The translations under genes and the position numbers were made by a program. The notes beneath the pieces are model-generated. The model did no database searches. It saw only the letters and a program-made list of their open reading frames with translations, and was not told the origin of the DNA. Below are positions 44,729-53,600 of a stretch of 64,000 nucleotides of DNA, piece after piece (the stretch's first letter is position 1; every line of letters begins with the position of its first letter). The stretch comes from Thiotrichaceae bacterium (lineage in GTDB: Bacteria; Pseudomonadota; Gammaproteobacteria; Thiotrichales; Thiotrichaceae). Location: NCBI GenBank assembly GCA_026989335.1, contig JALSJN010000022.1:1-64000 (forward strand), read 5' to 3'.

Positions 44729-45682
44729 ATGCCCACTAAATTTTACCATCCACGTTATTGGCTTGTTTGGATAGGCCTTGGCCTACTATGGCTAATAACG
44801 CGACTACCGTGGTTATACCAAATGCGCATTGGTGCAGTTATAGGAAATCTCCTTTACCATGCCATCCCGTCACGGCGCAAAGTTAGTTGTATCAATCTTA
44901 AAATTGCGTTTCCTGAATTAAGCAACCAAGCATTAAACAAACTTAACAAAAAACATTTTATTTCAATGGCACAAGGCCTGCTTGATGCCGCGCAAAGCTG
45001 GTGGGGAAGCACCAAACGCTTAGAGAAACTCACCCATATTGAAGGCATCGAACATATAAAAACCGCGCAAGACGCTGGCGAGAATATATTATTAGTCGGC
45101 GCTCACTTTACCTCACTCGAAGTCGGTGGACGTATTATTGCAGCACATACCCCAGTGGATGCCGTTTACCGACCCCACCACAATGATTTGTTAGAATACT
45201 TAGTGGCTAAAGAGCGTAATAAACACTTTAGAAAAACCATTTCAAAACGTAATATTCGGCAGATGATAAAAGGCCTTAAAGACGGTCATGTCTCTTGGTA
45301 TGCCACCGACCAAAACTACCGATTAAAAGGCAGTATATTGATTCCTTTTTTTGGTGTAGAAGCACCCACCAATCCCAGCACTGCTCGCATTGCTAAGATG
45401 ACTAAAGCTACCGTTATTCCAATTTTTACGTACCGCCTGCTTGGTTCACATTCAGATCAAAGACAAGGCTACCTACTGCGTATTTTACCACCCGTTGAAC
45501 ACTTCCCAAGTGGGGATGATTATCATGATGTTTCACACTTAAATCACATCATCGAAGAACAAATAAAAGAATTTCCTGAGCAATATCTTTGGTCACATGA
45601 GCGCTATAAGCACTATCAGAAAGAGAATAAAGACTTCTACAAAAATTATCTGCGCAAAAACCCTGAAGTAAATTGCCAATGA
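44729..45682 (+). CDS. LpxL/HtrB-type lipid A acyltransferase
   Basis: Inner-membrane acyltransferase of 317 residues that adds a secondary acyl chain (usually laurate or myristate) to lipid A. An N-terminal hydrophobic anchor (YWLVWIGLGLLWLITRLPWL) precedes the acyltransferase domain with the HX4E catalytic motif in GAHFTSLEVGG, then PVDAVYRPHHNDLLEYLV and the later DQNYRLKGSILIPFFGVEA. It overlaps the lptF start (ATGA) and so is coupled to LPS export genes, a sensible grouping. Confidence 0.9.
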   Translation: MPTKFYHPRYWLVWIGLGLLWLITRLPWLYQMRIGAVIGNLLYHAIPSRRKVSCINLKIAFPELSNQALNKLNKKHFISMAQGLLDAAQSWWGSTKRLEKLTHIEGIEHIKTAQDAGENILLVGAHFTSLEVGGRIIAAHTPVDAVYRPHHNDLLEYLVAKERNKHFRKTISKRNIRQMIKGLKDGHVSWYATDQNYRLKGSILIPFFGVEAPTNPSTARIAKMTKATVIPIFTYRLLGSHSDQRQGYLLRILPPVEHFPSGDDYHDVSHLNHIIEEQIKEFPEQYLWSHERYKHYQKENKDFYKNYLRKNPEVNCQ

Positions 45683-46794
45683 TCATTCAACGCTATTTAG
45701 TTAAAGAGATTATGTTGGGTTTTTTGGCTACCCTATCTATTTTGCTATTAATCATTCTCGGCAATACATTTGTGCGCCTGCTCGGTGATGTCAGTGGCGG
45801 CAGTATTCCTGTCGATGCCCTCGGAAAATTAGTTTTATTACAATCGGTCGGTGGAATTATAAAATTAGTTCCCATTGCATTATTGATTGGTATGATGTTC
45901 GCCTTTGGGCGGCTTTATAGTGACCATGAGATTGCTGCGTTACATGCATCAGGGGTCGGCCCGAAACAGTTTTACACCGGTATATTTTTATTTGTCGGGC
46001 CACTCACACTATTGATTGCAGGCTTAGTTTTGTTTGCCACACCTGCCATTGAAAAGACCAGCCAAGATATTAAAAACGAGATAAAACAACGACCAGAAGC
46101 GGCAGGAATTCCTGTAGGGGAATTTATGCACGCCAATGCTGGCAACAAAAAAATTACACTTTTTGTAGAAGATATTGATAAGGACAACGTTGTTATGAAA
46201 CGTTTTTTTCTGCATATCGAAGATAAATCAGAAACGACTCATGAAACTGGCAACCAAACTGATAAAAAAGTCACCAATAATGAAAAAATTATTTCAGCTG
46301 AAAAAGCATTACTTTATATCGACCCTGAAAGTGGCGACAGGGTGTTTAAAATAGAAACTGGCAGCAGTTACGACCATGACAAAATCAGCGAAGAATTTAC
46401 TATTTTTAACTTTCAAGAGCATGGCATACATATACCTGCGCTAACGATTTCCAGCAGTAATGACTTAGAAGCAGAGTCATTTTTTAACCTGTTAAAAAAT
46501 GATGATAATGAAAGCCACGCTGAAATTCACTGGCGTATTGCTCTGATCTTACAAGCACCGATTATGGCACTACTTGCCTTTCCGTTAAGCTACACTACGC
46601 CGCGTGAGGGTCGCTTTGGTAAAATTGCCATCGGTATCTTACTGTATGCCATCTACGCCAACCTCATCATCACCGGTCAATCAATGATTGAAGATGGAAA
46701 AATCCCCCATTGGCTCGGTTTGTGGTGGGTTCATATGGCGTTTATTGTTCTCGCGCTTTGGCTAGTACGCAGGCGTTACGGTAAACAATCATGA
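45679..46794 (+). CDS. lptF: LPS export permease LptF
   Basis: Inner-membrane half of the LptB2FGC ABC transporter that lifts LPS from the inner membrane. About 371 residues with the family layout: three membrane helices (LGFLATLSILLLIILGNTF; LVPIALLIGMMFAFGRLY; TLLIAGLVLFATPAIEKTS), a periplasmic jellyroll domain with an unusually acidic stretch, then three more helices (LQAPIMALLAFPLSYTTP). The start at 45679 overlaps the end of the LpxL gene, and the stop overlaps lptG. Confidence 0.95.
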   Translation: MIIQRYLVKEIMLGFLATLSILLLIILGNTFVRLLGDVSGGSIPVDALGKLVLLQSVGGIIKLVPIALLIGMMFAFGRLYSDHEIAALHASGVGPKQFYTGIFLFVGPLTLLIAGLVLFATPAIEKTSQDIKNEIKQRPEAAGIPVGEFMHANAGNKKITLFVEDIDKDNVVMKRFFLHIEDKSETTHETGNQTDKKVTNNEKIISAEKALLYIDPESGDRVFKIETGSSYDHDKISEEFTIFNFQEHGIHIPALTISSSNDLEAESFFNLLKNDDNESHAEIHWRIALILQAPIMALLAFPLSYTTPREGRFGKIAIGILLYAIYANLIITGQSMIEDGKIPHWLGLWWVHMAFIVLALWLVRRRYGKQS

Positions 46795-47855
46795 AAACGA
46801 TTAATTACTACCTCTGGGGAGCAACTCTTCAAGGTATTTTAATTACCAGCTTTGCACTCGTCACCTTGTTGACGTTTTTTGCTTTTATTGATGAAGCAGG
46901 TAAAACCGATGCAATTTATACCAATCTACATGCCGCTATTTATTTAGTATTTAAACTACCCAGCATCTTTTATGAATACTTCCCTGTTATGACCTTAATT
47001 GGCGCACTACTGGGGCTAGGCGCTTTATCCGCCAACTCTGAATTTACCGCGATGCGCGCGGCAGGCTTATCCGTTAAACAACTTATTTTCTCGGTACTTA
47101 AACTGGGTTTTTTACTGGCGCTGGGTATTTTTATTGTTGGTGAATGGTTGGTGCCACTATCTGACCTACATGCACGAAACTTTAAAGCACAACTAAAATC
47201 AAAGAATATTGTATTGGTGGGTGGTGCTGGGCTGTGGGTAAAAGAACGTAATAGCATCATTCATATTGGTAAAGTGAACAGTGAGACGGAACTTTCAGAC
47301 ATTTCAATCTATACATTTAAAGCAGGGCATAAAGGTTTAAAAACACTTTTAACCAGTACCAAAGCAACAGCGAAATCCAACGGATGGCTACTCAAAAACA
47401 CCAAAGAAACCACCTTTGAAGACTCTCGTCTTATTAAAAATAATCAGTCCGAGCGCTTGTACCCCAACTTAATTGACCCAGAAATACTAGGCGTTGCAAC
47501 GGTTGAACCTAGCCAGCTCTCCTCAAAGTCACTCAATCAAATTATTGAGCACCAAAAACAAAACAACTTAAACACTGACAAGTATGAGTTAATTTATTGG
47601 AAACGCTACTCCGTTCCCCTATCCGCTTTAGTCATGCTGCTATTAGCCATGCCATTTCTATTTGGATCAAATCGCAGCGGCGGCGCAGGTACACGGTTAT
47701 TTATTGGAATTGTAGTGGGAATTGTTTTTTCTTTAGTGAACCGTTCCATCAACGAACTCGGCATTGTTTATGGCTTCTCGCCCATTGTGAGTGCCTTTTT
47801 ACCGTTACTTATTTTTCTTATTATTGGCTTGTTTGCGATTAGCCGAATTCGTTAA
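46791..47855 (+). CDS. lptG: LPS export permease LptG
   Basis: Partner permease of LptF. The 354-residue product has the same topology: N-terminal helices (YYLWGATLQGILITSFALVT; YFPVMTLIGALLGLGALS), the coupling loop AMRAAGLSVKQLIFSVLK, a periplasmic domain (GLWVKERNSIIHIGKV) and C-terminal helices (LSALVMLLLAMPFLFGS). It overlaps lptF by 4 bp, giving equal translation of the two subunits. Ends the plus-strand operon. Confidence 0.95.
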   Translation: MKTINYYLWGATLQGILITSFALVTLLTFFAFIDEAGKTDAIYTNLHAAIYLVFKLPSIFYEYFPVMTLIGALLGLGALSANSEFTAMRAAGLSVKQLIFSVLKLGFLLALGIFIVGEWLVPLSDLHARNFKAQLKSKNIVLVGGAGLWVKERNSIIHIGKVNSETELSDISIYTFKAGHKGLKTLLTSTKATAKSNGWLLKNTKETTFEDSRLIKNNQSERLYPNLIDPEILGVATVEPSQLSSKSLNQIIEHQKQNNLNTDKYELIYWKRYSVPLSALVMLLLAMPFLFGSNRSGGAGTRLFIGIVVGIVFSLVNRSINELGIVYGFSPIVSAFLPLLIFLIIGLFAISRIR

Positions 47856-47877: not shown

Positions 47878-48747
47878 TTAAAAACGGTAATTAAAGCCTA
47901 AAGATACAACGGGGAAAAGCTTAAATTTCTTCAAGTTATCACCGCCATTAAGGTTATCTTCTTCTTTTTGTAGTTCCCTTTGAAACTCTAGAGCTGCATC
48001 ACTAGACCCTGCTAGATCAATCGCAGGTCCGGTATGAATACCACTTTTAGGAATAACATTTCCAGAAGCAGTTAGCTTCGCAACGGGAGCACCTTGAAAT
48101 AACACCCCCAAGTCCGTAGTCATACTAAACTTTGAAGCTTTATCGACCGCATTTCCCCAGCCGATACCCAAATAAGGTGCTGTACTTTTAAAAGATACCT
48201 TAGTATTAAGCTTTGCATCACTAATGTCATACGTAATGTCGCCAATTTCTGCATCTTGATTTGCGCCCGTTGCATCAAGGTCTATTTCATTTCCATTATT
48301 GTAAATACCTGCAGAAAGCCTAAAGCCACCACCTGTTGGGTGAAAATCTAAAATACCACCAAAAGACTGTAACTTAAGAGTTCCGTCGTAGTTGATGCCA
48401 TCATTTTCGCCATCAGCATTTAAGCTTCCACCATTAATACTAAAACGTGCATTTAACTTGTCCATTAGACCGTACGTTAAATCAGCTCCCAGCCCTAATG
48501 TACTGACTTTTCCTGTAATTCCAAAGCCACCAGCATTACCTTTATCAACTGACATTTTATTAGCGTTAGTTTTTTTGTTTATTTTAGTGTTTAGCACTTT
48601 CGTCGTTTTTGTTTGAGTCAGTTTTGTAACCTTCTTAGCAACGCTTTTTTTCTGAGGTGTCGGTGCAACAGGGGTTAGCGCAGAAGTGCTCGTCATAATT
48701 AATAGAGAAGAAGAAACAACGCCGATTGATAGGAAAGTTTTAAACAT
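47878..48747 (-). CDS. outer-membrane beta-barrel protein
   Basis: Exported protein of about 289 residues. The signal peptide (FLSIGVVSSSLLIMTSTSA) is followed by a Lys/Thr-rich segment (KKVTKLTQTKTTKVLNTK) and a beta-barrel with alternating hydrophobic strands (KVSTLGLGADLTYGLMDKLN; GGFRLSAGIYNN; PYLGIGWGNAVDK), closing in the outer-membrane C-terminal signature LGFNYRF. I set the start at 48747 (AAAGGCAC upstream); the open frame extends 30 codons beyond. The family is common in gammaproteobacteria with no known function. Confidence 0.85.
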   Translation of the reverse strand: MFKTFLSIGVVSSSLLIMTSTSALTPVAPTPQKKSVAKKVTKLTQTKTTKVLNTKINKKTNANKMSVDKGNAGGFGITGKVSTLGLGADLTYGLMDKLNARFSINGGSLNADGENDGINYDGTLKLQSFGGILDFHPTGGGFRLSAGIYNNGNEIDLDATGANQDAEIGDITYDISDAKLNTKVSFKSTAPYLGIGWGNAVDKASKFSMTTDLGVLFQGAPVAKLTASGNVIPKSGIHTGPAIDLAGSSDAALEFQRELQKEEDNLNGGDNLKKFKLFPVVSLGFNYRF

Positions 48748-48878
48748 AATAAGTGCCTTTGTAGTTGTTAGTATTAAAGAATTGCACACCATTAAAGCAT
48801 TAATTAACTGAATCGAGCATGAATTACTCATTTTCAAGAAACCGTCTGGTACTCCATTAAACCTGATTTGTAGGAGTA

Positions 48879-49616
48879 CTAACGTCCACGTAATTTATTT
48901 TTCAACTTACGTTTACGCATAAAGTCATCCCGAAAGGCAGTAGCTACGGAAAGTAGCTCATTAACGGGTTTACCCATCAACTCTGCATACCGTCCAAAAA
49001 TCACTAACATCGCCTCATCATCCGCAGATAAGCGCGCAAAATTTTCGAGGCGATCATTTAAACTAAGCTGTTTAAATTGCATACGATTGACATCAATTAT
49101 ATTAAAATCAAAGTTATTTTTTTGATATTTAATGAGAATATTTCCATACGAATAATCTCTATGTAATATACCTTTTTCATGCAAGGAAAAAGTGAAGCCT
49201 GCAAAGGCAGTTAATACATTCTCCCTCAGCTTTTTATCAAAACTTTTATCTAATAAAACAGGACGTATGGTTAAATCATAATGATACTGCTTAGAGATAT
49301 AGTAACTCTTACCCAGTAACCCTCCCGCCCTTTTTTCTATGTATGCAATGGGCTCTGGACAAAGTACCTCGCCTATTCTCAATGAATAATCATAAGAGCG
49401 TTTTGCTTTTGAAGGACGAAAGTATCGATAAACAATACGGTTTACAACATTGGGGACTTTAAACCTTTTAACCACATAATCCTGGCCCTCAAATGAAATA
49501 GCTTTTATTAAATTACGCTGGTCGTATAAAACATTTTCTGAGATCTCAAAATACTCCTCTATATTTTCAATAAAGGACTTTAACGCCTGATACTTAGGGT
49601 TAATAACAAGCTTCAC
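48879..49616 (-). CDS. LPS-core kinase-like protein (WaaP/InaA type)
   Basis: A 245-residue protein kinase-fold enzyme of the lipopolysaccharide kinase family, expected to phosphorylate a sugar of the LPS core or another envelope glycan on the cytoplasmic face. The catalytic loop HRDYSYGNIL, the metal-binding IIDVNRMQF and a Lys in DYVVKRFKVPN are visible. It overlaps the gene upstream by 4 bp and is the last of a four-gene unit (glycosyltransferase, LtaS-like enzyme, glycosidase-like protein, kinase). Confidence 0.82.
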   Translation of the reverse strand: MKLVINPKYQALKSFIENIEEYFEISENVLYDQRNLIKAISFEGQDYVVKRFKVPNVVNRIVYRYFRPSKAKRSYDYSLRIGEVLCPEPIAYIEKRAGGLLGKSYYISKQYHYDLTIRPVLLDKSFDKKLRENVLTAFAGFTFSLHEKGILHRDYSYGNILIKYQKNNFDFNIIDVNRMQFKQLSLNDRLENFARLSADDEAMLVIFGRYAELMGKPVNELLSVATAFRDDFMRKRKLKNKLRGR

Positions 49617-50893
49617 TCTAATTCCCCCAAGACATAAACCGGTGAACCTTTAAGCATAATATCATCAGCCTTCGCATAATTTATTTTATTGCCTTCCTTA
49701 GAAAAAACGGCGTTACTTTTAATACTGATTACACTTTGAAGACTAATGGGTGATAGAGACCAAAGCACTTCAATGGTTTGTTTCCCCTTCACAAAAGACA
49801 GTTGATACACGCCCTCTCTCTCCTGCATTCCTTTGTAGTCAGTACCTTGCAAGACGCTTAACATAAATTTAAAGCTATAGTAGGCAGGGTACTTTATAAG
49901 CTTGCCCCCTCTGTTATCAATCAAACCATAACCGGGCGCAATTAGCTGATGCCAATAAACCTGCTTAACTACACCCGATGACAAGGCTAGTAAATAATAT
50001 CGGACTAAAAAATTGGCGTGATCTTCCAAGCTAACACAATCATCTTCACTGGTTGGGGCATAGGGTGCAGTTTGCGTAATCGGCCAGTTAGTTTCTGTGA
50101 TAACAATATCGTTACCGGTTTTTCGGCTTAACCGTAATATGGCATATAACAACCTTAGCTTATTAGGTAAATCCAAGCCCATTTGGGTATTTTCTGGGGC
50201 GCCACGCCTATCTACATACAGTAAGCTACTACACTCATCAAAGTGAATTTTATAGCCGTTAAATAATGTGCGAAAAGTAAAATAGTATTCAAAGTCTATA
50301 ACGGATGAGCCGAGCAAAGTAAGCTGAGGGAAGTGTATTTTTTTTAGCTCAAAAGCAACTTGATAAAATTGCAAATATTCACCCATAGAAAAAAATGCCC
50401 ACTTTTTTCGGTTAATAGCATTGCCTATTTGGAAACGTTGAGTTAAATGAGCGAAACCTTTAAAAATACGCGTCAATGCTTGCCTTGTAAGTGCTAAATC
50501 TTCGATATGACGACGATCTTGTAAAATATTTATAAGTAAATTTCTATCACAAAATCGTTCAGCAAAGGATACGTATTGATCAAGGTTTTCAATATCATGC
50601 AACGGCATCCGAATCAGTAAATTATCTACTTGTAAATCATCTATCAATGCTTTTGTTTTATCTGGATTTTTATCTAAGTTAATACTTAAACCAAAAAAGT
50701 ATTTTTTTTCGAAAACCTCATTAACGCTTAGTGGCATTAGCTTATAGTAGGCATAGGCTACTGGAAAAATAGCTAAGTTGGTTAACACTAATTTAACTGA
50801 ATCCCATCGTGCCTTTTTATACAGTTGCTTTTTTAAATCCCTATCACGTATAACATGGGGTTGGTCTGAATACTCATCCCAAGGAAACTTCAT
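49613..50893 (-). CDS. glycosidase-fold protein lacking the usual acid/base Glu
   Basis: Protein of about 426 residues that looks like a (beta/alpha)8 clan-A glycoside hydrolase. Strand ends include LLIRMPLHDIENL, QIGNAINRKKWAF, LLGSSVIDFEYYF and DIVITETNWPITQT. In clan-A enzymes the fourth strand ends in Asn-Glu, the acid/base; here the equivalent IGNAIN has Ala. The nucleophile Glu in ITETNWP is present. A hydrophobic segment near residue 40 (LTNLAIFPVAYAYYKLMPLS) may anchor it. The start overlaps the LtaS-like stop (ATGA). I would not claim hydrolase activity; a binding or transglycosylating role in envelope glycan synthesis is possible. Confidence 0.65.
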   Translation of the reverse strand: MKFPWDEYSDQPHVIRDRDLKKQLYKKARWDSVKLVLTNLAIFPVAYAYYKLMPLSVNEVFEKKYFFGLSINLDKNPDKTKALIDDLQVDNLLIRMPLHDIENLDQYVSFAERFCDRNLLINILQDRRHIEDLALTRQALTRIFKGFAHLTQRFQIGNAINRKKWAFFSMGEYLQFYQVAFELKKIHFPQLTLLGSSVIDFEYYFTFRTLFNGYKIHFDECSSLLYVDRRGAPENTQMGLDLPNKLRLLYAILRLSRKTGNDIVITETNWPITQTAPYAPTSEDDCVSLEDHANFLVRYYLLALSSGVVKQVYWHQLIAPGYGLIDNRGGKLIKYPAYYSFKFMLSVLQGTDYKGMQEREGVYQLSFVKGKQTIEVLWSLSPISLQSVISIKSNAVFSKEGNKINYAKADDIMLKGSPVYVLGELE

Positions 50894-52848
50894 TGACAAT
50901 CGCTAGCGGTTATCGGTTTGTAAAGTTGTTTTTGATAAAGTTCGTTTAAGCCAACGACAAAAGCAAGTACGTCTTTCTCTAGTTCTTGATTATGATCGGC
51001 ATTCACTAAGCGACCATTCTTTATTTTCATCGTTACAGGCTCTTCTTGAGGCTGAATAATAGCAATTTCATCTCCAACTCGAAGCCCATACATTTGATGA
51101 AACTGCAGTAAAGACATATCTTTTTTATGATTTTCAAAGATGCTATGGCCAAGAATGGGGTAATGAAGTTTCTCTACACCGATCAGATCAAGTGCTGTAG
51201 CCAATAAATCTGCCTGTGTACTTAGGCGTTCAACTTTTCTAGCTTTCACACCCTCACCAAAAATAAAACCAGGAATACGAAACATTGCATATGGCAATAG
51301 ATCATCACCATACACACGAACATTATGATCCGCCGCTATAACAAAAATAGTATCTTTATAATAATCTTCTTTTTTTGCCTGATTGATAAACTTACCCATT
51401 GCATAATCTGCAAACTTAATTGCATTTTTAACCGAGTAAGGCTCAACTCCTTTTATGAGTTCAATACGCCCTTCAGGAAAATCAAACGGTGTATGATTCG
51501 TGGTGGAAAACATTACGGATACAAAAGGTTGTTGTTTTTTATACAATTGTTTAAATTCTTGATTGGCTCGCTCAACTAAATCCTCATCACTTACTCCCCA
51601 AACACCATGAAACTTAGGATTAATAAACATATTTTCATCAATGATTTCATCAAACCCATTACCGTAAAACCACGACGCCATATTATCAAAGCGTTTCTCA
51701 CCACCATAAATAAAAATACTGTGATAGCCATGACGCTTAAGTAACTGGGCTACAGTAAAAAAATCTTTTTGAGATTTATTGCGTTTTAAAACACCTTTGC
51801 CGGGTACTGATAAAAAGCCAGCAACCAAGCCTGCCAAACCACGAATACTGCGAGTACCATTTGAGTAAAGTTGATTAAACGTAATACTTTGTTTAGATAA
51901 TTTATCTAGGTTTGGAGTAATACCCTTTTCACCTTGCGCGCCATTAAGTGCCCCTACAAACTGGGCTCCTAAGCTTTCTTGAATAAAAATGACTAAGTTT
52001 TTTGGTGTCTTCTGTTTAAAGTGCGAAATAACTGGCCGTGAAAATGGGGTAAGACAACGGCCTACACTCAAATCAAGGTGTTTTCCCATACGTTCAAAAG
52101 CTTCTTTGACAGGCATTTTTCCATATATTTTTGTTACATCAACATCTGTTTTCTTTTGTGAATAATAAGCATAACCAATCGCATACAGTGAGTTCTTAGT
52201 CACTTCATTTACCAAGTGGCTTTTTGTATAAGTTGCATCTGAGATATTGGCAGGTCGGTGCCCAAAGGAAGAACGAATTCCAATGAATAGAATGAATAAT
52301 ACCGGCATCAATAAAGCAGCTCTTTTCCAATATGCAACGTCAAAAATAGTTTCAAAGAACAGTCTACTCTTTGCCCAATACCAAACTGAGAACAAGACCA
52401 ACATTAAACTACTAATAAAAATCTCAAGTTTATAGGTCGCCCATATATTACCGAGAACCTCTTTAGGGTACTCTAAATAATTAATAAACAGTTCATTCGG
52501 ACGAACATCAAACTCTGCAAAGAAAGGAAAAGTGGCATTCTCAATATAAATAGCCAATATAAAAACTAATAAAAAGTAAACTCTTAAAAAGAGATTACCT
52601 AACCGGCTCAAAAATTTAGGTAATAACAACATTATAATAGCTGGAACAACCAATAACATTGCTGCCACCATGGTATCCATTTTCAAGCCATAAAGAAAAC
52701 TCCACCCATATTCCGTACCGCTTTGACTAATACGATCAAAATACTGATAAAATAAGCCGAGACGACCAATAAAAAAAATTCCAATTAGGCCAAGGTAAAG
52801 AATAAATAGCTTTTTAATAGGGAGCCAAAATGTGTTTTGTTGATTCAT
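50890..52848 (-). CDS. LtaS-like membrane sulfatase-fold transferase
   Basis: Membrane enzyme of about 652 residues of the LTA synthase/phosphoglycerol transferase family. Five N-terminal membrane helices (LFILYLGLIGIFFIGRLGLF to AALLMPVLFILFIGI) precede a periplasmic sulfatase-fold domain. It contains VIFIQESLGAQFVG (metal site Glu), the nucleophilic Thr in YSNGTRSIRGL, SIFIYGGEKRFDN, STTNHTPFDFP and VIAADHNVRVYG. In Gram-negatives such proteins transfer phosphoglycerol or phosphoethanolamine to glycans such as periplasmic glucans or LPS. It is coupled to the glycosyltransferase gene upstream (TAATG) and to the glycosidase-like gene downstream. Confidence 0.88.
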   Translation of the reverse strand: MNQQNTFWLPIKKLFILYLGLIGIFFIGRLGLFYQYFDRISQSGTEYGWSFLYGLKMDTMVAAMLLVVPAIIMLLLPKFLSRLGNLFLRVYFLLVFILAIYIENATFPFFAEFDVRPNELFINYLEYPKEVLGNIWATYKLEIFISSLMLVLFSVWYWAKSRLFFETIFDVAYWKRAALLMPVLFILFIGIRSSFGHRPANISDATYTKSHLVNEVTKNSLYAIGYAYYSQKKTDVDVTKIYGKMPVKEAFERMGKHLDLSVGRCLTPFSRPVISHFKQKTPKNLVIFIQESLGAQFVGALNGAQGEKGITPNLDKLSKQSITFNQLYSNGTRSIRGLAGLVAGFLSVPGKGVLKRNKSQKDFFTVAQLLKRHGYHSIFIYGGEKRFDNMASWFYGNGFDEIIDENMFINPKFHGVWGVSDEDLVERANQEFKQLYKKQQPFVSVMFSTTNHTPFDFPEGRIELIKGVEPYSVKNAIKFADYAMGKFINQAKKEDYYKDTIFVIAADHNVRVYGDDLLPYAMFRIPGFIFGEGVKARKVERLSTQADLLATALDLIGVEKLHYPILGHSIFENHKKDMSLLQFHQMYGLRVGDEIAIIQPQEEPVTMKIKNGRLVNADHNQELEKDVLAFVVGLNELYQKQLYKPITASDCQ

Positions 52849-53600
52849 TAAACTTTCCAATAATCCTTAATCCAGCTAGCTGGACGTAAATAACGATACC
52901 ATTTACCACTGACACCCTGAATAGCATCAACAGGCTCTGGCTTGCCATGAAATAAAATTATTTTTGCCCCTTTTGGTATAAAAGGAGAACGCCAGAAGTT
53001 TTGCGGGAATTTTGGTACACAATGGTATTTAAAGCTTGGTGTCCACTCCTTTGGCCAAAATTTTAATACATTCTTTGCATGCATTTGATGCGATAAATAG
53101 GCCTGCTCATTACGATGCTTTGCTTTAATTGAATCGAAATTTTCAAGAAAAAAAGCCAACACTTCAGCATGCTGCCCTATTTTAAAACGATATACCGATG
53201 AATTTCCAATAAATTGTGTTTTTTTCTTTTCATCAAAACACAAAGCGAACTCCGCTTCAAACTCAAAAAAAGCATCAATGTTATCGACAATCAACACATC
53301 AAGGTCTAAAAAAAGAGCGGTTCCCTTAAGGTCCTCTAAGGGCTTTTGAAAGGTTGCTAACTTTAACCAACCACGCTCTGGTATGTCATCTGGCAAGCCT
53401 AAGCTCGGTAAGGGGTAAGTTTTAACGGCTGGTTGAATATCAGAATTATTATCCGTAAAACACACAAACTGAAACGGAACCGTGATATTTCGAGATACCA
53501 TGGCATAAAGCTTATTAACATATTCAGCACCATACTTATCACCCCACTTCATGCAGATGATATTTACAGCTTTCTTCTCTTCCATTGTGTAAAATCCCAT
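52848..53600 (-). CDS. glycosyltransferase with DxD motif
   Basis: Soluble 250-residue glycosyltransferase with a GT8-like look. It has N-terminal strands (VNIICMKWGDKYGAEYV; FQFVCFTDNN), the metal-binding DLD in TALFLDLDVLIVDN, and the conserved C-terminal pieces FWPKEWTPSFKYHC, KIILFHGKPEP and RPASWIKDYW. Relatives occur in LPS and capsule clusters. Alternative start at 53585 (MEEKKAV). It begins the four-gene minus-strand glycan unit and is divergent from a GT2 gene 78 bp away. Confidence 0.82.
   Translation of the reverse strand: MGFYTMEEKKAVNIICMKWGDKYGAEYVNKLYAMVSRNITVPFQFVCFTDNNSDIQPAVKTYPLPSLGLPDDIPERGWLKLATFQKPLEDLKGTALFLDLDVLIVDNIDAFFEFEAEFALCFDEKKKTQFIGNSSVYRFKIGQHAEVLAFFLENFDSIKAKHRNEQAYLSHQMHAKNVLKFWPKEWTPSFKYHCVPKFPQNFWRSPFIPKGAKIILFHGKPEPVDAIQGVSGKWYRYLRPASWIKDYWKV

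Follow-up and report, generated by a model that had tools for sequence, protein, structure and literature searches.

The four-gene unit and its protein families

The window, a 64,000-nucleotide stretch of a Thiotrichaceae genome (G000; 2.46 Mb in 86 contigs) whose nearest named relative is a Thiotrichaceae MAG (JALSJU010000074.1), contains a unit of four minus-strand genes. In reading order these encode a GT8-like GT-A glycosyltransferase (52848..53600, 250 aa); SULF, a putative membrane-anchored phospho-group transferase of the sulfatase superfamily, similar to VP1736, LtaS and OpgB (50890..52848, 652 aa); GHX, a protein with a predicted GH39/PslG fold that has no acid/base Glu (49613..50893, 426 aa); and KIN, a putative LPS-core sugar kinase of the Kdo/WaaP type (48879..49616, 245 aa). 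The likely starts, as read from the sequence, are ATG 52848 for SULF, ATG 50893 for GHX and GTG 49616 for KIN; residue numbers of GHX are counted from an upstream TTG at 50899. Together with the list of open reading frames, these starts give an overlap of 1 base between the GT8-like gene and SULF and of 4 bases each for SULF/GHX and GHX/KIN, just as the initial annotation of this DNA had claimed.

A GT2 glycosyltransferase gene (PF00535; 53679..54488, plus strand) was also correctly described as diverging from the unit. It lies 78 bp from the GT8-like gene, and a copy 85.5% identical is divergent in genome G005 as well (loci L018/L025). Two neighboring features are given for context only: convergent with the unit are genes for LptF and LptG of LPS export (45673..47855, plus strand), named from a reading of the sequence without a family scan, and beyond them is an LpxL-type lipid A acyltransferase gene (44729..45682, plus strand; TIGR02207 over cut-off). 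LptF and LptG adjoin the unit in G005, and in G007 LptG alone is near. Directly 3' of KIN, an outer-membrane-like protein with a weak CarO porin match (32.4 bits, cut-off 300) is encoded at 47878-48837 on the minus strand, and this CarO-like gene is kept downstream of KIN in G005.

The family labels first given to the unit stand for KIN and SULF, and for GHX and the GT8-like protein they hold at the level of fold only. KIN passes the cut-off of PF06293 (Kdo/WaaP; 27.6 bits against 21.3) and remains far below the NCBIfam equivalog cut-offs, the best match being a weak one to Kdo kinase (24.5 bits against 142), followed by RfaP (19.9 against 170). Its residues Lys50, His152, Asp154, Asn159 and Asp175 are kept in 40/40 homologues, counted among those above 120 bits. 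SULF matches Pfam Sulfatase (PF00884) at 141.5 bits, carries six hydrophobic segments, and has VP1736 (3lxq, E 4e-101) as its closest solved relative, with LtaS-type chains at E 1e-15 and weaker; it too is below equivalog cut-offs (LtaS 69/970 bits, OpgB 54.7/574). The SULF motif GTRSIRG corresponds to GTRSVRG of VP1736, and its Thr may be the nucleophile.

The GT8-like gene product in the window has no Pfam match, and 12 relatives gave two chance matches and none to the GT8 family. A DxD motif (D99-x-D101) is invariant in two sets of relatives (12/12 and 10/10), and a low-confidence model (pLDDT 61.4) resembles LARGE1, glycogenin and LgtC at Z 12-14. Tandem GT8-like copies are also present on IMG/VR viral contigs (L212:2343-6007, L213-L216); where they align with the window gene, they share about 30-36% identity with it.

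Conservation of the pair and of the set

All four genes are found at one locus in two of 63 family genomes, G000 and G005. The four-gene set is nearly private to these two genomes, and the conserved part is the GHX+KIN pair, to which lineage-specific additions have been made. Within the family, GHX was detected in 14/63 genomes and KIN in 17/63; all 14 genomes with GHX have KIN (Fisher 1.8e-11, relatedness uncorrected), which directly follows GHX on the same strand in every one of them (in G025 as judged from coordinates). Among 298 Campylobacteria genomes, 54 have GHX, 53 have a strong KIN match and 52 have both (Fisher 1.5e-54, relatedness uncorrected), with the weak KIN matches in G481 (E 5e-4) and G581 (E 9e-5) kept out of the count. 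In 48 of these 52 genomes the pair shares one contig, always on the same strand and with a gap of 925-8667 bp. GHX and KIN are also fused in one frame in the gammaproteobacterial genomes G134, G221 and G424, and by coordinates only in G064, giving proteins of about 740-810 residues. One locus with a fused gene (L058:8947-16088) also encodes a protein of 745 residues that contains three kinase stretches of the Kdo/WaaP type, in surroundings of SIS-domain, sulfotransferase and epimerase genes.

The other two genes behave differently from the pair. The GT8-like gene is a lineage-specific part of the unit, present in 15/63 family genomes, three of which have GHX, and independent of GHX (p 1.0, relatedness uncorrected). 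SULF, at a threshold of at least 67% identity, is present in 12/63 family genomes and co-occurs with GHX in 8/12 (p 2.5e-4) and with KIN in 10/12 (p 7.8e-6; neither value corrected for relatedness); at the same threshold it was not found in 6/14 GHX genomes, and in several it is on a separate contig. The overlapping frames had been taken to mean that all four proteins are made together. This view is supported for GHX and KIN, and there is no support for the four genes as one conserved pathway: in the co-occurrence search that had been proposed as a check, GT8 tracks neither GHX nor KIN, and SULF tracks in part (8/12).

Each member of the pair is also found by itself. In a sample of 369 gammaproteobacterial genomes, 7/12 of those with GHX lack a KIN match, and so GHX can act without KIN. 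Conversely, three family genomes have KIN with no trace of GHX nearby, in pieces of 5.7-6.0 kb, which argues against contig edges as the cause; with a completeness of 58-84%, they may have GHX elsewhere. In a sequence tree, the 13 Thiotrichaceae rows form one group inside the Campylobacterota rows (100/98), and this nesting suggests that Thiotrichaceae acquired the pair from sulfur-oxidizing Campylobacterota, with long branches that warn against interpreting deep forks. A search for GHX in plasmids and phages found none.

Predicted fold, pocket and probable location of GHX

GHX has no Pfam match up to E 10, hence none to Glyco_hydro_39 (PF01229), and searching PDB sequences with a GHX profile gave no result. 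Its fold was read from an AlphaFold model built from 8 sequences (pLDDT 75.6, pTM 0.79), which is weak at the active-site loops (pLDDT <50 at 162-170, 200-210, 232-238 and 278-285). A clan GH-A barrel and a C-terminal beta domain are found in this model, and it matches GH39/PslG structures (5jvk, 9g17, 5bx9) at Z 28.6-30.3 and rmsd 3.3-3.4 over 339-346 aligned residues; the values are Z 30.3 over 339 residues for the GH39 structure 5jvk and Z 28.9 over 344 for PslG, both at rmsd 3.3. Beta-Klotho is also among the fold matches. Elsewhere in the window genome (G000:C49, L209:1396-3272), two neighboring ORFs look like secreted glycosidases, one of them with a GH39 match, and appear short or split.

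The catalytic positions of such a fold are only partly retained in GHX. A weak hhalign register (probability 0.7%, P 0.079) aligns A161 with the Glu of WNEPN and E269 with that of Asn-Thr-Glu-Ser in a GH39 protein. At the acid/base position 161 (strand 4, Asn-Glu-Pro), 66 sequences have Ala in 33, Thr in 31, Val in one and a gap in one, so that Glu occurs in 0/65; loci L018, L019 and L020, which duplicate L025, L033 and L036, do not enter these counts. The nucleophile-position E269 (strand 7) is Glu in 63/66 and is lost only in three fusions, and N163, R164, W167, D202, F203, E204 and R231 are invariant in all 65 GHX with residues there. Because position 161 is never Glu while the pocket residues are invariant, the conserved pocket without the usual acid is a trait of the family and no local mutation. 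The three fused GHX-KIN proteins that were read have lost E269 and kept the rest of the pocket.

The N-terminus of GHX consists of a W-D-x-x-S-D-Q-P motif and a hydrophobic helix in which Pro46 is near-invariant (63/66). No hydrophobic segment was found in the three fused proteins; given that KIN needs ATP, GHX would be cytoplasmic in these fusions. The initial annotation had allowed for a periplasmic glycan as an alternative target to the LPS core; that the glycosidase-fold protein acts on such a glycan is not supported, because fused homologues join it to an ATP-using kinase and have no membrane segment. We read the N-terminal helix as a membrane-dipping anchor that would leave the barrel inside. 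Against this, the segment is hydrophobic enough for a membrane span in 53/65 GHX, and positive charge flanks the helix, so that a plain positive-inside reading puts the barrel in the periplasm; both observations count against GHX as a kinase partner. Pro46 and L056 speak for the anchor: in L056 the helix is barely hydrophobic and the upstream Trp-Asp...Gln-Pro motif is retained; this divergent GHX (L056:5992-8915) has a longer N-terminus, no membrane helix, and a position after an O-antigen ligase-like gene (PF04932).

Inner-core context, proposed mode of action and known systems

The surroundings of homologues link the pair to the LPS core. In 38 Campylobacterota regions, hand-picked from 54 Campylobacteria genomes with GHX mostly for their long contigs, a gene of the heptosyltransferase family GT9 (PF01075) is near GHX in all 38 and directly downstream of it (<=150 bp, often overlapping) in 26; the MAG loci L021-L024, of which L023 (G431) was viewed separately, are outside this count. 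HldE, HldD or GmhA matches occur in 29/38, where the HldD-like ones may include other epimerases. One such locus (L157) reads KIN, polysaccharide deacetylase, GT2, GT9, GHX, GT9, GmhA, HldE, HldD and a GmhB-like gene. Within the window's own family, KIN is followed by GmhA, HldE and HldD in L167, and the GHX-KIN pair by GmhB in L019. Because GT9 and Hld/Gmh genes surround its homologues, the GHX+KIN pair is assigned, from gene neighborhood, to LPS inner-core assembly. The LPS-core link that had been proposed is well supported by this context. Homologous clusters in a known LPS-core pathway had been named as grounds for abandoning a new pathway, and this applies by half: the Campylobacterota homologues do lie in heptose/inner-core loci, but we found no account of the GH39-like protein there.

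The sugar that would be phosphorylated may differ between lineages. Heptose was considered as a necessary target and rejected: a GT9 (PF01075) match was not found in 6/14 family genomes with GHX+KIN, namely the window genome, G005 and four others, and KIN co-occurs with GT9 in 11/17 (p 0.41). Since no GT9 was detected in the window genome, the acceptor there is more likely to be Kdo, or a different core sugar, than heptose. At a further locus (L165:750-4471, G024), KIN has as neighbors genes for a CDP-glycerol:glycerophosphotransferase (PF04464), a cytidylyltransferase-like protein and a metallophosphoesterase, which hints at cytoplasmic synthesis of a glycerol-phosphate decoration.

We hypothesize, with our confidence about evenly balanced, that GHX and KIN form a two-protein module at the cytoplasmic face, a kinase acting on an inner-core sugar together with a probably non-hydrolytic, glycan-presenting partner, to which lineages add SULF and GT8. 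The basis of the module is co-inheritance, adjacency, fusion, residue loss and LPS-core gene context. In it, KIN, as a WaaP/KdkA-type enzyme, would transfer phosphate from ATP to an inner-core sugar while the LPS is being built. GHX, tethered by its N-terminal helix to the inner membrane on the cytoplasmic side, would most likely bind and present the lipid A-core glycan through its Arg/Lys-rich pocket without hydrolysis; alternatively, it may stabilize or steer the kinase. After flipping, SULF would add a phospho-group (e.g. phosphoglycerol or phosphoethanolamine) in the periplasm, and in the window's genus a GT8-like transferase would be added to the scheme. In four Campylobacterota MAGs SULF adjoins GHX; a YejM-like and an LpxL-like gene accompany them, as does DgkA in 3/4. 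DgkA would recycle the diacylglycerol released in a transfer of the phosphoglycerol or phosphoethanolamine type.

Against the module count the genomes that have one member of the pair only, the 6/14 family genomes without a GT9 match and the low model confidence at the active-site loops. E269, kept in 63/66, is more than a pure binding protein needs. GHX might instead be an atypical retaining transglycosidase or glycosyltransferase, with E269 as nucleophile, a nucleotide- or lipid-phosphate sugar as a donor needing no acid, and the phosphate placed by KIN as a possible acceptor. We regard this as doubtful, if worth keeping in sight. The conservation of E269 and of E204 and D202 (65/65), the place of GHX in LPS-core operons, with glycosyltransferases on one or both sides, and its occurrence without KIN in 7 genomes all fit such an enzyme, and retaining glycosidases without the acid exist, e.g. 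myrosinase. However, the fusions have dispensed with E269 while keeping the rest of the pocket, there is no known donor, and we know of no GH39 that builds LPS. A variant that we think unlikely accommodates the fusions: GHX would be a cytoplasmic, acid-less GH39-fold enzyme whose nucleophile, with the phosphate placed by KIN, builds a core linkage (e.g. a glycosyl-phosphate diester), and the fused lineage would have decayed to a pure substrate-binding subunit; GHX would then be the first of a new class of LPS-assembly enzymes.

The initial annotation envisaged one dedicated pathway in which four enzymes put sugar, phosphoglycerol or phosphoethanolamine, and phosphate onto one envelope glycan. 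The overlapping frames, the association of SULF with GHX (8/12) and KIN (10/12) in the family, and its place near GHX in the four Campylobacterota MAGs too are consistent with this, but the independence of GT8 from GHX (p 1.0), the restriction of the full set at one locus to G000 and G005, and the several GHX genomes in which SULF is on another contig or (6/14, at least 67% identity) was not found make it, in our judgment, more unlikely still. Least probable is that GHX works in the periplasm as a conventional PslG-like glycosidase, trimming or proof-reading a glycan of the envelope. Here GH39 and PslG as best structural matches and the positive charge before a membrane-capable helix are set against an acid/base Glu missing in 65/65, kinase fusions without membrane segments, and no match to PF01229 or any other Pfam family.

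Returning to the two-protein module, GHX is probably a functional but so far unrecognized component in the assembly of outer-membrane sugars. The stability of the outer membrane and the entry of drugs depend on LPS-core kinases, whose sugar recognition is poorly known. If the module is real, its glycosidase-fold partner would represent either a novel type of kinase subunit or a novel core enzyme in Campylobacterota and sulfur-oxidizing gammaproteobacteria, and a family without a Pfam entry, found in Campylobacterota inner-core loci, would gain a function. In the accessible portions of open-licence papers no pairing of an LPS kinase with a GH39-like protein is described, and in those of the Arcobacter butzleri and A. 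thereius genome papers the LOS locus is described and a GH39-like protein is not mentioned. Among the components, kinase, transferase and LPS locus belong to known kinds; it is the acid-less GH39-like kinase partner that we did not find described.

Among known systems, GHX shares with PslG and GH39 the barrel and beta domain, the Glu at the nucleophile position and a neighborhood of polysaccharide genes, but it has neither the acid/base Glu nor a Pfam GH39 match, is tied to an LPS kinase, and is soluble in its fused forms; PslG, by contrast, has a signal peptide and E165 and E276 as key residues (available text of PMC7237758). An Acinetobacter baumannii LOS-core gene, 2898 (ghy/orf1), is called a 'glycosyl hydrolase' in a locus that includes a deacetylase, and its deletion truncates the core, with its role given as 'unclear' (PMC10936431, in the part available). 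It first had a Pfam GH43 assignment, which was later dropped with no other Pfam family in its place (PMC4172580), and with that history we treat it as a parallel only and not as a homologue of GHX. SULF resembles VP1736, LtaS and OpgB in its sulfatase domain and N-terminal hydrophobic segments and is close to VP1736, but it falls below the equivalog cut-offs of both LtaS and OpgB. KIN is like WaaP and KdkA in passing the PF06293 cut-off with its kinase residues intact, and unlike them in scoring far below their equivalog cut-offs and in having GHX as its proposed partner where WaaP has acyl-ACP. According to the available text of PMC6147952, P. aeruginosa WaaP needs bound acyl-ACP for solubility and function, and this dependence provides a precedent for a partner-dependent kinase of KIN's family. 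Klotho, too, is a pseudoglycosidase that acts as a kinase partner, a resemblance in logic only, as it is GH1-like, extracellular and animal.
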